A DNA stretch of 64,000 bases from Porphyrobacter sp. AAP82 (lineage in GTDB: Bacteria > Pseudomonadota > Alphaproteobacteria > Sphingomonadales > Sphingomonadaceae). Below are positions 15,591-40,460 of this stretch, piece after piece. The number at the start of each line of letters is the position of its first letter. Within the stretch, counting starts at the first letter, position 1. A program made the position numbers and the translations under genes. The stretch is from NCBI RefSeq assembly GCF_000331285.1, contig NZ_ANFX01000007.1:1-64000 (forward strand). Direction: 5' to 3'. Under the pieces are notes generated by a model, which saw nothing but the letters and a program-made list of their open reading frames with translations, was not told where the DNA came from and ran no database searches.

Positions 15591-15624
15591 CAAGCAGCGA
15601 AGCGGTAGGGCAACAAAAACAACA

Positions 15625-16045
15625 TCAGGGGGCCATCATAAGCCGGGTTCTGTCTCCCCGGACGGTATCCTTGCGGACCAGCGCCGGGGTGGCAGCCATT
15701 CATCTGGGCGGGGGATTGCTCCCGCGCTCTAGCAGCCAACCCGGGTCTCTCGGCGCGAAACACGCCTGCCCCTCTTGCGAGCGGCGCGAGACCCCTATTC
15801 GGCCTTGCTCCGGGTGGGGTTTGCCATGCGGTTGCCGTTGCCGGCCCCCCGGTGCGCTCTTGCCGCACCCTTTCACCCTTGCCTGTGCTTACGAAGAAGC
15901 CATCGGCGGTTTGCTCTCTGTGGCACTTTCCCTTGACCCGCGCCCGAAAGCGCGCGCCCGGCGGGCGTTACCCGCCACCCTTGTTTCGTGGAGCCCGGAC
16001 TTTCCTCGCGTCCCGAAAGACACGCGGCTGCCTCAGGCCCCCTGA
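15625..16045 (-). ncRNA. rnpB: RNase P RNA (type A)
   Basis: The catalytic RNA of RNase P, about 421 nt, which removes tRNA 5' leaders. Conserved landmarks on the minus strand are GAGGAAAGTCCGGGCTCC near the 5' end (CR I) and ACAGAACCCGGCTTAT near the 3' end. The ends were set by the P1 helix: TCAGGGGGCC at the 5' end pairs with GGCCCCCTGA at the 3' end, a perfect 10-bp stem. A T-rich stretch (TTGTTTTTGTTG) follows P1 and may terminate transcription. Confidence 0.93.
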
Positions 16046-36097: not shown

Positions 36098-37177
36098 TCA
36101 GCCCTGCCCGGCGACGACGCAGGCCTTGCCTTCGCGCTTCAGCGCGGCGCAGGCGCGGCCGGCTTCGGCCTCGCTCGAAAAGCCGGTGGCGAGCAAGCGG
36201 GTGAGGCTGCCCGACGGCAAGAGCGCCTTGCGGGTGCCCGCGAGTGCGGCATGGCTGCCGATCTGGCTCCACAGCTTGTCGGCATTGCCCGCCACGCCGA
36301 AAGCGCCAAGCTGCACGCGCCAGCTGCCCTGCTTGCGCGGGGCGAGCGCGGCCGGAACGGGCGTCACGGTCGAGCCCTTGCCGGCCGAGGCAAGCGTGAG
36401 CTGCGCAGGCGCCGGGGCCGGAGCGAGCGGCTTGGGTGCGGGCGGCAGGCCCATCGGCTTGGGCGCGGCGGCAGCGACAGTTACCACCGGCGGCTTGGGC
36501 GCGGGCGCAGTTGCGACCGCGAGCACCGCTGCGGCGGCCGGGCGGCTGCCGAGCTCGGCGGCGGCGAGTTCGGTCTGGCGCTGGGCCCTGGCACCGGCAT
36601 CAAGCTCGCGGGCGAGCGACTGCGCCTGGGCACGCTGGGCCTGCGGAATATAGGTGTCCATCTGCGCCAGCGCCTCGCGCGCCTGCGGCAGGCCGGCGCC
36701 GTTCGCCAGCGTCATCAGCGCATAGGCGCGCGTCCAGTCGCGCGGAGCATAGTCGGCGTTGAAGTGCGACAGGCCCAGCACATATTGCGCGCGAGGATCG
36801 CCGCGGTCGGCAGCAGCCTGGATCAGCGGCATGGCCTTCTGCTGTTCGCCTTCCTGGAACAGCATCAGCCCGAAATTGTCGGCGGCCTTCACATGGCCGA
36901 GCGCCGCGGCCTGCTCGTAGAGCTGGCGCGCGCGGGCATTGTCGATCTCGACCCCGCGCCCGAGACGGTAGGCCTGGGCAAGGTTGAACAGCGCATCGGC
37001 ATCGCCGGCAGCGGCCGGGCCCTGCCATTCGACCACCGCGCGGGCATAGTCGCCCGCACTCCACGCATCGACGCCGGCCTTCACGTCCGCGAGCGCGGGC
37101 GCCGCAGCCGCAAGCAGCGCAAGCCCTGCGCCGGCCATCGTCATCGTCCTCGAACCTGCCATAATGAAGCGTGCCAT
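36098..37177 (-). CDS. Sel1/TPR repeat protein with C-terminal SPOR domain
   Basis: A 359-residue exported protein: signal peptide (residues about 1-31, ending PALADV), Sel1-like repeats over about residues 32-160 (ALFNLAQAYRLGRGVEID, AQYVLGLSHFNADYAPRDW), a Pro/Ala-rich linker, and a SPOR domain in the last 75 residues (GSWRVQLGAFGVAGNADKLW...). SPOR domains bind denuded glycan at the septum. It is divergently transcribed from the ParA gene with a 265-bp shared promoter region and its architecture mirrors that of the SPOR protein on the other side of ParA. Confidence 0.82.
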   Translation of the reverse strand: MARFIMAGSRTMTMAGAGLALLAAAAPALADVKAGVDAWSAGDYARAVVEWQGPAAAGDADALFNLAQAYRLGRGVEIDNARARQLYEQAAALGHVKAADNFGLMLFQEGEQQKAMPLIQAAADRGDPRAQYVLGLSHFNADYAPRDWTRAYALMTLANGAGLPQAREALAQMDTYIPQAQRAQAQSLARELDAGARAQRQTELAAAELGSRPAAAAVLAVATAPAPKPPVVTVAAAAPKPMGLPPAPKPLAPAPAPAQLTLASAGKGSTVTPVPAALAPRKQGSWRVQLGAFGVAGNADKLWSQIGSHAALAGTRKALLPSGSLTRLLATGFSSEAEAGRACAALKREGKACVVAGQG

Positions 37178-37337
37178 CGATCGTCTCTCGCCTGTTGGTG
37201 CTGGGCCCAGCAGAAGGGGTGGTGGAGCGATCCATAGGGCAACACGGTTATCAAATGGTTGCACGTGGTCTAGGCCCGGTCGCGCGCGGCGAGGCCGGGC
37301 CGGGGCCGCATCAGCCATTCCCCGCACGTCCGGCATG

Positions 37338-37354
37338 TTAACCCTAAATTAGGG
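37338..37354. promoter_or_regulatory. CtrA-like box / palindrome in the SPOR-ParA divergent region
   Basis: TTAA at 37338 plus 7 bases plus TTAG at 37349 matches the CtrA site TTAA-N7-TTAA at 7 of 8 positions. It also forms the palindrome CCCTAA-A-TTAGGG (37342-37354). It lies about 90 bp before the ParA start and 160 bp before the SPOR gene start. The divergent region holds no gene. Confidence 0.45.
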
Positions 37355-37442
37355 GTATCCTGCGATCCCGTGTCCATCCAGCCGTTGTCAGGCGTTGCAA
37401 TAGGGCAGCACGCAGCGGTTCAATCCATGGGGGACCCAGGCG

Positions 37443-38165
37443 TTGCGTGTACTCGCTTTGGCATCGCAAAAAGGTGGATCGGGCAAGACCACCCTGTCCG
37501 GACATCTCGCCGTCCAGGCCCAGCGCGCTGGCGCCGGGCCGGTCGTGCTGATCGACATCGACCCGCAAGGCAGCCTTGCCGACTGGTGGAACGAGCGCGA
37601 GGCAGAGTATCCCGCCTTCGCCCAGACCACGGTCGCGCGTCTCGCCAATGACCTTGCAGTGCTGCGCCAGCAGGGCTTCAAGCTCGCGGTGATCGACACC
37701 CCGCCGGCCATCACCATGGCGATCCAGTCGGTCATCAGCGTGGCCGAACTGATCGTCGTGCCGACCCGCCCCTCCCCGCACGATCTGCGCGCCGTGGGTG
37801 CCACGGTCGACCTGTGCGAGCGCGCGGGCAAGCCACTGGTGTTTGTCGTCAACGCGGCCACACCCAAGGCCAAGATCACCTCGGAGGCCGCGGTCGCGCT
37901 CTCGCAGCACGGCACCGTCGCCCCGATCACGCTCCACCACCGCACCGATTTCGCCGCCTCGATGATCGACGGCCGCACGGTGATGGAGGTCGATCCCGAA
38001 AGCCGCTCGGCTGCGGAAATCGCCGCGCTGTGGCGCTATATCGCCGATCGTCTGGAAAAGAACTTCCGCCGCACCGTGTTTGCGCCCGCGCCCAATGGCT
38101 CCGGCCAGCACATGGGCGGCGTGCCGCGTCCCGCGGGCGGCTTCGGCCGCCGGGTGGCGCAGTAA
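37443..38165 (+). CDS. Orphan ParA/MinD-type ATPase
   Basis: A 240-residue ParA-family ATPase with deviant Walker A KGGSGKTT (Lys10 and Lys15), Walker A' IDIDPQGSLADWW and Walker B VIDTPP. It has no N-terminal helix-turn-helix, so it is of the small ParA class that partners ribbon-helix-helix or other adaptor proteins. The start is TTG at 37443 with no in-frame ATG nearby. The gene for a RHH-domain protein begins 18 bp downstream; no parB or parS is visible. It is likely a positioning ATPase for a cargo rather than the main chromosome ParA. Confidence 0.87.
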   Translation: MRVLALASQKGGSGKTTLSGHLAVQAQRAGAGPVVLIDIDPQGSLADWWNEREAEYPAFAQTTVARLANDLAVLRQQGFKLAVIDTPPAITMAIQSVISVAELIVVPTRPSPHDLRAVGATVDLCERAGKPLVFVVNAATPKAKITSEAAVALSQHGTVAPITLHHRTDFAASMIDGRTVMEVDPESRSAAEIAALWRYIADRLEKNFRRTVFAPAPNGSGQHMGGVPRPAGGFGRRVAQ

Positions 38166-38183
38166 GCGAAGGCGCACAGGGCC

Positions 38184-38882
38184 ATGTCGGATTCCGGTTT
38201 CGCCTCGCTCGGACCTTCGCTGCTCGCCCGCAAGGGCGGCGCCAAGCCCGCGATGCGTCCGCAGGTCGCACCGCTGGTCGCCGAGGAAGCGGCCGTGGTG
38301 CCCGAGGAGGCGCTCGAGGATCTCGGCTGGAACGATATGGGCGATTCGGATGGCGAGGGCGGCGCGCAGATCGTGCCGATCAGCGCCGACCTCAACGCCA
38401 GCCCCGCCACCGCCGGCCCCGGCCCGATCGTCCGTCGCCAACAGCGCCGCCTCGAAGAGCGCGTGCTCGCCGATGCGGCGATGACCGGCCCGGAAGACCG
38501 CGAGCCCGAATATGACGAGGACGGGGCCGAGGACGAGGACGAGGAGGCGCCCTACGGCGAAGTCTTCGATTCCGCCGATTACGACGCGGACGAAGAGGAC
38601 GAGGACGCAGACACCGCGATCTATTCGCCGCTCGTCCCGCAGGTGTCCCACGTGCCGCAGGCTGCGCCGGCTCCGGCACCAGTGCCCCGCGTTGCCGCCG
38701 CTCCGTCCGCGCGCCGCGCCGCCTTCACGCTGCGGCTCGATGCCGACCGCCACCTCAAGCTGCGCCTTGCCGCGACCATGCAGGGCGTCAGCGCCCAGGT
38801 GCTCGTGACCGAGGCTCTCGACCGCCTGCTCGCCGAATATGACGAGCTCGATGTCATCGCCAATCACCTCAAGCGCCACTGA
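38184..38882 (+). CDS. Acidic protein with C-terminal ribbon-helix-helix-like domain
   Basis: A 232-residue protein with three parts: an N-terminal region of about 100 residues with low complexity, a strongly acidic disordered stretch (about residues 108-150, mostly Asp and Glu), and a C-terminal RHH-like segment (RRAAFTLRLDADRHLKLRL then two helices ending LDRLLAEYDELD). RHH proteins are DNA-binding and serve as centromere adaptors for small ParA ATPases (ParG type). Here it is 18 bp after ParA, so a ParA-partner role is inferred. No transmembrane segment. The family is not one I can name. Confidence 0.7.
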   Translation: MSDSGFASLGPSLLARKGGAKPAMRPQVAPLVAEEAAVVPEEALEDLGWNDMGDSDGEGGAQIVPISADLNASPATAGPGPIVRRQQRRLEERVLADAAMTGPEDREPEYDEDGAEDEDEEAPYGEVFDSADYDADEEDEDADTAIYSPLVPQVSHVPQAAPAPAPVPRVAAAPSARRAAFTLRLDADRHLKLRLAATMQGVSAQVLVTEALDRLLAEYDELDVIANHLKRH

Positions 38883-38944
38883 GCGCCCGCCACCACAACC
38901 GCCACGACAACGTGAACCATCAGGATCTACGGGGGACTTTGACC

Positions 38945-40393
38945 ATGGACCGCAGCATCACAACCGGCCGGAAGACATCGCCGCGTCTCGCGCTCGCCGT
39001 CACCACCGCGATCGCGGGACTGGCCTTCGCCGGAGCGCCCGCTTCGGCCGCACCGCGTGCCGAGACGTCCTTCGGGAACGCGCAGGAAGCGCTCGCCAAG
39101 GGCAAGGTCGAAAAGGCCATCAAGCATGGCGAGGAGGCCGTGCTCGCCGATGGCCGCAACCCCTCCTATCGCGCGCTGCTGGGTGCGGCCTATCTCGAGG
39201 CGGGCCGCTTCGAATCCGCGGCTGCCACCTTCGGCGATGCTCTGGAGCTGGGCGACAACAACCCCCGCACGGTGCTCAGCTTCGCGCTCGCCAAGATCGC
39301 GATCGGCGATCCCAAGGCGGCGGTGCTGGTGCTCGATGACTATTCGGCTGCGATCGACCCTGCCGATCTCGGCCTTGCGCTGGCCCTTGCCGGGCAGCCG
39401 GAACGCGGCGTGGCTGTGCTGGTGAACGGCGTTCGCAGCGCCGAGGTCGCCACCCCCAAACTGCGCCAGAACCTTGCCTATGCCTATGCGCTGGCCGGCA
39501 ACTGGCGCGCTGCCCGCGTGATGGCCGCCGAAGACGTGCCCGCCGACCAGATCGAAGCGCGCCTTGCCCAGTGGGCCCAGACGAGCGCACCCGAAATGGC
39601 CGCGCAGCGCGTTGCCGCATTGCTGGATGTCACCCCGCGCGCCGATGCCGGCCAGCCGATGCACCTCGCGCTCGCCGGCTTCCCGGCGCAGGACATGAGG
39701 GTCGCCGCGTTCGACGCCGGTGTCGACGCTGACGTCGCGCTGGCCGCAGCCGAACCCGCCGCGGTCGCCGATCCCGCCGCCTCGGCCAGCTTCGCCGCCG
39801 CCTTCGCCGCGCCTGCACCCGCTGCCGAAGCGGCCCCCGCACCGGCGCCCCAACAGCCCCTCGTCACCTTCGCCGCAGCACAGCCCAAAGCGCCGGGGAT
39901 CCGCTATGTCTCGAACCCGATGGTCCAGCAGCTGCCCGCAGCTTCGGCCGCCACGCCCACGCCGGCGGCGGTTCGCGCTCCTGCCGCGCCCGCCGCGCCG
40001 CGTGTCGCCCAGGCCGCCTCGCAGCGCCGCATGGCCGCGACCACAGCTGCCGGCGCACCCGCCCCTGCCGCCGCCGCCGCCGCCGACAGGGGTCCGGCCA
40101 CCCACCTCGTCCAGCTCGGCTCCTACGGCAGCAAGGCCGAAGCCCAGCGCGGCTGGAGCACGCTGCTGGCCAAGTTCCCGCAACTGAAGGACCGCAAGCC
40201 GGTGATCACCGAAGCGCTGGTGGGTGGCCGCACCTTCTGGCGCGTCGCCGCCGACGGCTTCACCTCGCAGGGCGCCCGCGCCATGTGCGGCACCGTGAAG
40301 TCGGCAGGCCGCGGGTGCTTCGCCTACGCCGCCTCGACCCCGCCCGCTGGCGTCGTCAAACGCGACGTGCAGGTTGCCTCGCGCAGCCGCTGA
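38945..40393 (+). CDS. TPR protein with C-terminal SPOR domain
   Basis: A 482-residue exported protein: signal peptide (residues about 1-36, ending PASAAPR), TPR repeats over about 37-190 (ALAKGKVEKAIKHGEEAVL, YRALLGAAYLEAGRFESA), a long Ala/Pro-rich linker and a SPOR domain in the last 80 residues (THLVQLGSYGSKAEAQRGW). It begins 63 bp after the RHH gene, in the ParA operon direction, and ends in a strong terminator. SPOR proteins act at the division septum, so this operon plausibly links a ParA system to cell-wall or septal events. Start ATG 38945 has GGGGGA upstream. Confidence 0.82.
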   Translation: MDRSITTGRKTSPRLALAVTTAIAGLAFAGAPASAAPRAETSFGNAQEALAKGKVEKAIKHGEEAVLADGRNPSYRALLGAAYLEAGRFESAAATFGDALELGDNNPRTVLSFALAKIAIGDPKAAVLVLDDYSAAIDPADLGLALALAGQPERGVAVLVNGVRSAEVATPKLRQNLAYAYALAGNWRAARVMAAEDVPADQIEARLAQWAQTSAPEMAAQRVAALLDVTPRADAGQPMHLALAGFPAQDMRVAAFDAGVDADVALAAAEPAAVADPAASASFAAAFAAPAPAAEAAPAPAPQQPLVTFAAAQPKAPGIRYVSNPMVQQLPAASAATPTPAAVRAPAAPAAPRVAQAASQRRMAATTAAGAPAPAAAAAADRGPATHLVQLGSYGSKAEAQRGWSTLLAKFPQLKDRKPVITEALVGGRTFWRVAADGFTSQGARAMCGTVKSAGRGCFAYAASTPPAGVVKRDVQVASRSR

Positions 40394-40428
40394 GGCGCCT
40401 CGTCGTCATTCACGCTGAGCAAGCCTTG

Positions 40429-40460
40429 CTCCCGGTCAGCCGCCGCTGGCCGGGAGTTTT
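40429..40460 (+). terminator. Rho-independent terminator after SPOR gene
   Basis: A 12-bp stem (CTCCCGGTCAGC / GCTGGCCGGGAG, one G-U pair), loop CGCC, then TTTTC. It closes the ParA-RHH-SPOR transcript. Confidence 0.85.

Follow-up and report, generated by a model that had tools for sequence, protein, structure and literature searches.

A chromosomal branch of the ParF/ParG-like ParA and ribbon-helix-helix pair beside SPOR-domain genes in Porphyrobacter sp. AAP82

Introduction

What does a small ParA ATPase do on a bacterial chromosome when no ParB of the helix-turn-helix (HTH) type is encoded beside it? The question is raised by a 64,000-nucleotide stretch of DNA from Porphyrobacter sp. AAP82 (contig NZ_ANFX01000007.1, positions 1 to 64,000; hereafter the window), in which a parA gene is followed by a gene for a protein with a C-terminal ribbon-helix-helix (RHH) domain, and this pair stands between two genes for proteins with a SPOR domain (Table 1). 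In a part of PMC10241942, ParA partners are described as so diverse that many ParAs count as orphans. A preliminary description of the locus, made from the sequence alone, took the four genes together as a candidate undescribed positioning system. We find here that the pair in the window belongs to a chromosomal branch of ParA–RHH, distinct from the ParABS system and the MipZ of the same genome, and that its SPOR neighbours, together with SPOR-bearing ParA partners in other lineages, suggest that the chromosome is linked to the cell wall at division.

Results

The ParA encoded in the window is of Walker type, lacks an N-terminal HTH domain and aligns with ParF chains from its first residue. 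Among solved chains, 5u1g (named ParA; E 2.3e-15) and 4dzz (ParF; E 2.7e-15) come closest, and that of McdA matches at E 4.7e-5. The protein exceeds the curated Pfam cut-offs of AAA_31, CbiA and MipZ, among others, and the nearest NCBIfam model, 'ParA family partition ATPase', scores 165 bits, below its cut-off of 180. Two related identities were considered and rejected: with MipZ the score is 20.9 bits, compared with 359.4 bits for the true MipZ, which is encoded on contig C19 of the same genome, and with the MinD model it is 24.0 of the required 212.9 bits. The start codon is a TTG at 37443, preceded by GGGGGA, and is TTG or GTG across the aligned loci of the genus.

Orthologs of this ParA, partial copies included, were found in 35 of 37 genus genomes, the two without one, G010 and G023, having completeness values of 86 and 72. 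Elsewhere in the order 18 of 24 genomes have one (none was found in G037, G041, G044, G047, G048 and G055), and a ParA of at least 57% identity is present in 34 of 285 class-sample genomes outside the window's family. Here and below, counts are based on tblastn, blastp and profile searches, the output of a gene caller having served for neighbour lists only; G, L and C numbers denote genomes, loci and contigs. In six genus genomes (G003, G012, G021, G022, G026 and G031) parA lies on a single contig of 3.0–3.3 Mb, and in all six its distance from parB, taken as the origin marker, is 17.6–22.6% of the genome; the corresponding values in eight other genomes run from 4.3 to 49.5%. All 15 genomes searched have a canonical ParB, and the only match to TIGR00180 (ParB) in the window's genome is on contig C5, away from the parA locus. 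A canonical ParABS identity was therefore also rejected, there being no adjacent HTH-type ParB and no origin-proximal position in any of the six genus genomes. Given its presence on single large contigs and the separate ParB and MipZ, we regard the ParA as chromosomal and as additional to these systems; the pair is not a plasmid-borne, plasmid-stabilising ParF/ParG module but a chromosomal branch of that kind.

The partner gene begins 18 base pairs after the parA stop codon and its product ends in a domain that is below threshold in Pfam (Antitox_RHH 2.4e-4, HicB 3.9e-3). A profile built from 17 relatives matched, among solved chains, omega (1.2e-4 and 2.8e-4), ORF E73 (7e-4), ParG (1.5e-3) and PutA (2.2e-3). 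The RHH profile is matched by 140 of 176 partner rows, which yielded 125 distinct RHH sequences; the strand carries T or S in 112 of them and R in 112, and in RHH proteins the side chains at these strand positions face DNA. An AlphaFold2 model of the window protein has a mean predicted local distance difference test (pLDDT) score of 63 and a predicted template modelling score of 0.28, most of it outside the C-terminus being of low confidence. It places C-terminal helices at residues 187–200, 204–218 and 221–231, with pLDDT values of 88–94 over residues 191–230; the ribbon strand is absent from this monomer model. A structure search restricted to the RHH part returned mostly RHH chains (best Z 6.2, root-mean-square deviation (rmsd) 5.8, 54 aligned), including omega (Z 4.4, rmsd 3.1, 47 aligned) and ParG (Z 3.5, rmsd 9.4, 67 aligned), with a McdB chain among the weak matches (Z 3.4, rmsd 3.4, 42 aligned), Z values of this size being insufficient alone to establish a fold. 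The profile matches and architecture nevertheless indicate that this is likely a ParG-like partner of ParA and an analogue of ParB.

Between the N-terminal motif described below and the RHH domain lies a variable, acidic and mostly disordered linker. Partners from named Sphingomonadaceae and from the window's genus keep in this linker the motif (D/E)DLGWNDMG, whose GWND core occurs in 58 of the 139 rows for chromosomal partners of non-SPOR type and may bind a further partner. Outside this GWND group, 48 of 76 distinct chromosomal partners without SPOR (e.g. L040, L041, L079 and L101) have a C-x-C motif in the last 35 residues, perhaps with a metal or redox role; it is found in 0 of 55 members of the GWND/genus group and in 0 of 9 plasmid partners.

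The N-terminus of the partners is marked by a motif of consensus L-x3-LL-A-R-K-G-x-A-x-P. As a control we ran a strict form, L-x3-LL-[AV]-x-KG-x-A-x-P, on 80 named loci, where it is present in 57 of 77 partner open reading frames (ORFs) as against 1 of 3899 other ORFs, the exception being the missed partner of L200; with both classes, read stop to stop, limited to their first 110 residues, the counts are 40/77 and 1/3899. A loose form allowing up to two mismatches was found in the gene after parA at 58 of 61 readable chromosomal loci with a ParA of at least 57% identity (34 exact, 19 with one mismatch and 5 with two; misses L117, L133 and L137). The underlying table holds 63 such loci, plasmids excluded and two of them at contig ends; its rows L048–L050 duplicate genus genomes, L136 (52%) was excluded as spurious, and L109 (49%) matches the motif poorly. 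The script scored no motif in L189, where a shortened form is visible by eye, and took a wrong stretch as the motif in L191 and L212, while the pattern used to tally partner rows permitted few letters at the K, G, A and P positions, so that its percentages are conditional on that choice. Behind ParAs of 37–42% identity the motif is present in 0 of 5 partners (L110–L113 and L118). Two of these loci, L113 and L118 (ParA identity 37–41%), have short ORFs without the motif that look RHH-like by eye, and RHH partners may therefore predate the motif. In L090 (4351–4860, minus strand), L178 and L201 the partners carry the motif, poorly in L201, with neither RHH nor SPOR recognised by profiles; these are possibly more adaptor types.

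The position of the motif invites comparison with ParG. In the portion of PMC7308502 that treats the ParF–ParG complex, the RHH domain of ParG binds DNA; a helix formed by residues 8–22 of its tail lies beside alpha5 of ParF, and the tail stimulates ATP hydrolysis by ParF. Because the motif sits at the place that matches this tail, we propose, by analogy, that it is a ParA-docking tail.

Relatives of the pair are found on plasmids. A tblastn search against plasmids gave 3488 records, with identities of 56–67% among the matches listed, and we opened ten loci from beta-, gamma- and alphaproteobacteria and one uncultured source. Their ParAs are 57–67% identical to that of the window, and the partner motif was recovered by script in nine of the ten (L121, L122, L123 and L127 with one or two mismatches) and by eye in the tenth, PLAsvaD (L128), which the script had missed. 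Replication genes adjoin the pair in PLAsvaD and in three modules that share its gene order with the window, namely pZM22-2 of Comamonas resistens, unnamed2 of Deefgea piscis and p2018-05-2CC_3 of E. coli; in these three the ParA is 58–67% identical, the motif is present (with one mismatch in E. coli) and a C-terminal RHH domain is apparent by eye. They differ from the window in having a replication gene within ~1 kb and in the length of the partner, which is just 80–114 residues on the small plasmids, the chromosomal partners differing mostly by a longer linker. The ParA–RHH pair is, in other words, a known plasmid kind. In a tree of 78 ParAs, made by a quick method and containing several long branches, the plasmid rows need at least three changes, which leaves the direction of transfer unsettled.

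The association with SPOR domains was followed in gene counts, in synteny and in the partners themselves. Two of the five SPOR genes of the window's genome flank the ParA–RHH pair; elsewhere the number at the pair over the total is 2/4 in G031, 2/5 in G003, 2/5 in G049 and 1/4 in G040, and in G069 the single SPOR gene at the locus (of five) encodes the ParA partner itself. Across 30 loci of the genus, the window included, a TPR homolog lies downstream in 30, a SPOR domain downstream in 29 and a Sel1-SPOR gene upstream in 23. SPOR genes lie on both sides at 2/2 family loci; among 17 loci of the order they are downstream in 16, upstream in 11 and on both sides in 10, and among 28 named Sphingomonadales loci the values are 27, 25 and 24. 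L214 and L035, at the least, belong to more than one of these sets, and some misses are spurious, since flanks are short in L032, L206 and L207 and the upstream SPOR gene of L210 falls outside the distance rule. At three loci (L299, L300 and L303) TPR-SPOR and Sel1-SPOR genes stand head to head with no parA–RHH between them, the Sel1-SPOR frame of L300 looking broken.

At seven loci outside the window's order, from four families (L088, L098, L099, L102, L103, L108 and L132), the partner itself joins the N-terminal motif to a C-terminal SPOR domain. All seven have one strongly hydrophobic segment (19-residue hydropathy 1.96–2.71), the SPOR domain passes the Pfam cut-off in all six that were tested, and profile searches did not find RHH in these proteins. 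With a SPOR profile of our own, 17 of the 80 named loci have a partner with both motif and SPOR, which is not a natural frequency because the first row of the query was of SPOR type; L146, L151 and L159 duplicate L102, L103 and L132, the truncated L154 was classed as other, and the count is 17 rather than 19 because L185 and L207, where TPR-SPOR genes follow parA, were excluded. Eight of these 17 loci bear the label Parvibaculaceae or Rhodobiaceae, including Parvibaculum sedimenti and Tepidicaulis marinus, and one, from a Kiloniellaceae metagenome-assembled genome (L173), has no clear transmembrane segment (hydropathy 1.37). Five genomes (G069, G183, G203, G267 and G286) have both kinds of partner, RHH and SPOR, with a separate ParA for each. 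In the tree of 78 ParAs those of the SPOR-bearing partners fall among the chromosomal RHH-type ParAs, and the C-terminal part of the partner has thus apparently been exchanged. With the FtsN model NF050813, a Caulobacter-like model whose cut-off of 300 bits is reached by no gene of 12 genomes, two of five SPOR-bearing partners score 26 and 39 bits, with no match listed for the others.

Upstream of parA, TTAACCCTAAATTAG matches, save for its last A, the CtrA consensus TTAA-N7-TTAA(C), as given in parts of PMC7200025 and PMC9437464. Between –150 and –50, the pattern TTAA-N7-TTA[AG] is present in 28 of 30 genus loci, against 0.01 expected from mononucleotide shuffles (the source of all such expectations here), in 13 of 28 named Sphingomonadales (0.04 expected), in 5 of 51 other named loci (0.56 expected) and in only one of the 19 loci from the family and order (0.38 expected), a looser form being present in 10 of these 19 (0.87 expected). 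On this consensus match the site is a putative CtrA box. A conserved 20-base element 5' of parA was considered as a multi-copy site and rejected, there being one copy in the genome at up to three mismatches; exact TTAACC-N5-TTAR occurs twice in the genome, which does not point to a large regulon with sites of this kind.

Other lineages may use a different control. A c-di-GMP-I riboswitch (RF01051 or RF03167), above the Rfam cut-off, lies directly 5' of parA at nine of 39 loci scanned (L079, L080, L081, L082, L085, L090, L101, L116 and L117), from five families in other alphaproteobacterial orders. None was detected in the window, in the 17 SPOR-type loci, in 18 other named loci or in one batch of 13 among the 39 loci (nine of the window's order and four of other orders). 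Since plasmid partition modules would hardly need such control, the chromosomal pair seems tied to the cell cycle or lifestyle. L090 has a second c-di-GMP-I riboswitch farther upstream, and in L080, L085 and L116 the riboswitch and parA are preceded by a gene for a protein of ~360–395 residues, which by eye resembles the DUF2336 family.

The remaining features of the locus are collected in Table 1. The four genes lie where the preliminary description had placed them, and its RHH-like C-terminal domain is upheld by the profile matches to omega and ParG. SPOR is above the curated Pfam cut-off in both flanking proteins, as are Sel1 and TPR_19, and both have, as judged by eye, a signal-peptide-like N-terminus; the TPR-SPOR gene starts 62 base pairs after the RHH stop codon, and 37177 is the most plausible start of the Sel1-SPOR gene, which ends at 36098 on the minus strand. 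A terminator had also been described, and a stem is indeed present where expected, although one stem against a shuffle mean of 1.6 is not significant alone. A Pfam scan of seven neighbouring proteins at 34.7–42.6 kb bore out the stated absence of plasmid genes, none being seen, and showed no carboxysome or chemotaxis genes. Elsewhere in the window, positions 15621–16045 of the minus strand encode a bacterial RNase P RNA of class A.

Table 1. Features of the parA–RHH locus in the window
Feature	Position	Strand	Evidence
ParA ATPase, ParF-like, 240 residues	37443..38165	+	ORF translation and Pfam
RHH adaptor protein, 232 residues: N-terminal motif, acidic linker, C-terminal RHH	38184..38882	+	ORF, profiles, AlphaFold2 model
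N-terminal motif ASLGPSLLARKGGAKPAMR, proposed ParA-docking tail	38202..38258	+	alignment, motif counts
Linker motif EDLGWNDMG	38316..38342	+	partner alignment
Ribbon-helix-helix domain with T-x-R strand	38715..38837	+	RHH profile
TPR protein, SPOR domain at C-terminus	38945..40393	+	Pfam; downstream homologs
Sel1-repeat protein, C-terminal SPOR, divergent from parA	36098..37177	-	Pfam; upstream homologs
CtrA-box-like site TTAACCCTAAATTAG, ~100 bp 5' of parA	37338..37352	+	pattern search, genus loci
Terminator-like stem-loop with T tail	40428..40457	+	stem-loop search against shuffles

Discussion

The explanation that we favour, and hold to be evenly poised between right and wrong, is that the window encodes a chromosomal ParF/ParG-like pair in which a tail-docked partner moves a DNA cargo, the movement being likely tied to the division zone. 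The family of the ATPase, the architecture of its partner, the plasmid relatives, the synteny and the SPOR-bearing partners are supported by sequence comparison; we infer the docking, the stimulation of the ATPase, the binding of DNA, the cargo and the link to division. In such a mechanism ParA-ATP would coat the nucleoid, the N-terminal tail of the partner would dock on ParA and trigger ATP hydrolysis, and the partner and its load would travel along the resulting ParA gradient, with the C-terminal part of the adaptor deciding the cargo. Because the window's partner ends in an RHH domain of the DNA-binding type, its cargo would most likely be either a site on the chromosome or an RHH nucleoprotein complex. 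The flanking SPOR proteins, and the replacement of the RHH domain by SPOR in other lineages, would likely tie this movement to the division zone, and a septal wall link of ParA–RHH is plausible.

Several observations weigh against this explanation. Within the genus the Sel1-SPOR gene is absent from 7 of 30 loci and the downstream SPOR domain from one of 30. Of six genomes of the order that lack parA, three (G037, G041 and G044) have the SPOR pair head to head without parA–RHH, which argues that it does not need ParA–RHH; the parts read of the remaining three genomes showed no pair of this kind. Two Novosphingobium loci (L185 and L207) have ParA followed by TPR-SPOR with no recognisable RHH gene. 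The SPOR proteins of the window read as exported, so direct contact with a cytoplasmic ParA is not expected, and the motif is present in 0 of 15 further SPOR proteins from five genomes (G000, G031, G049, G040 and G069). The parA gene is near parB in some genomes (4.3% of the genome away in G040, and 4.9% for the SPOR type of G069), and a search for a centromere 5' of parA recognised short two-copy repeats only, and no array.

Some of these points would be expected if the pair were a plasmid partition module, domesticated or left behind, that continues to segregate or silence DNA, its SPOR neighbours hitchhiking by shared descent. Plasmid relatives of the same architecture exist, the SPOR pair and ParA–RHH are separable, as the parA-less genomes show, and ParA–RHH occurs in other orders without these SPOR neighbours. 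Against this stands the conservation of the ParA, which at 57–67% identity in the class sample outside the family and with an ortholog in nearly every genus genome seems to be under selection. Shared descent also fits poorly with genomes that hold so few SPOR genes, only four to five in each of three genus genomes with two of them at this locus, and with other lineages in which the SPOR domain belongs to the ParA partner. On balance we think this origin unlikely to be the whole explanation, though it deserves serious consideration.

It is less probable still that the RHH protein acts chiefly as a transcription factor, modulated by ParA, with the pair regulating itself and the flanking SPOR genes. 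The portion of PMC7308502 cited above has ParG repressing its own genes as well, and there is a conserved element 5' of parA. That 20-base element is single-copy, however, and fits a CtrA box; the CtrA-like element is uncommon outside Sphingomonadales despite the presence of RHH there, and SPOR-bearing partners are without a detectable RHH domain. A selector of the division site resembling MinD or MipZ might be expected beside SPOR genes, and the ParA has its weak score with the MipZ family, but the presence of a true MipZ elsewhere in the genome and the poor fit to the MinD model make this very unlikely. A second origin-segregating ParABS is the least credible of all, since membership of the ParA family and proximity to parB in G040 are offset by the lack of an HTH-type ParB at the locus, the sole ParB match lying elsewhere, and by the distance from parB in the genus.

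The proposed tail-docked DNA carrier of the ParF/ParG kind can be placed among characterised systems as follows. Like ParF–ParG of plasmid TP228, the pair comprises a small ParA that aligns from residue 1 and a downstream RHH partner with an N-terminal tail; unlike it, the pair is chromosomal, its tail and linker extend over ~177 residues, it has SPOR neighbours, and no centromere repeats were recognised at the locus. The likeness to delta/omega of pSM19035, a plasmid of Gram-positives, lies in omega being the best solved match to the RHH profile. Delta/omega acts with a contiguous heptad parS array according to a section of PMC9499535, and no such array was recognised at the window locus. MipZ shares with our ParA the superfamily and an alphaproteobacterial setting, but is a separate gene in this genome. 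In McdA–McdB and PpfA/ParC, which a part of PMC10241942 describes as moving cargo by a ParA through a dedicated partner, the idea is alike and the partners differ. Finally, the SPOR-bearing partners resemble FtsN-type SPOR proteins in having a cytoplasmic N-terminal part, usually one transmembrane segment and a C-terminal SPOR domain; they differ in being adjacent to ParA and in carrying the ParA-partner motif, and G069 has a better FtsN candidate elsewhere.

These comparisons bear on what the preliminary description had proposed. Its resemblance to plasmid ParA/ParG systems is confirmed by ParF being among the closest solved chains, the ParG-like partner and the plasmid relatives, and the link to SPOR that it suspected exists, in the form of motif-bearing SPOR partners outside the window. 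The statement that ParB is absent holds for the HTH type and is otherwise too strong, the RHH protein being a likely ParB analogue. As an obligate unit the four genes do not survive: ParA–RHH is found without SPOR neighbours in other orders, the SPOR pair persists alone in half of the parA-less genomes, and the Sel1-SPOR gene is not constant even in the genus. Their order is largely syntenic in Sphingomonadales, and is not confined to the Erythrobacteraceae as had been supposed. As to novelty, the pair itself is already known from plasmids; what our searches of open-licence PubMed Central literature did not show is the chromosomal, SPOR-linked branch of ParA–RHH, or any publication that describes SPOR partners for a chromosomal ParA.

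A wider reading, which we put forward tentatively and think more likely wrong than right, is that a nucleoid-bound ParA works with interchangeable motif-docked adaptors, either DNA-binding RHH proteins or membrane SPOR proteins, so that a DNA site can be anchored or shifted with respect to the septum as it closes, with control by CtrA or by c-di-GMP depending on the lineage. The membrane SPOR adaptor would in this case recognise denuded septal peptidoglycan. The motif common to plasmid RHH, chromosomal RHH and SPOR-bearing partners provides a handle for finding the partners of ParA proteins. Connections between nucleoid and division include nucleoid occlusion and links between the terminus and the divisome; if the SPOR link is functional, the pair would provide a ParA route between the nucleoid and septal peptidoglycan.

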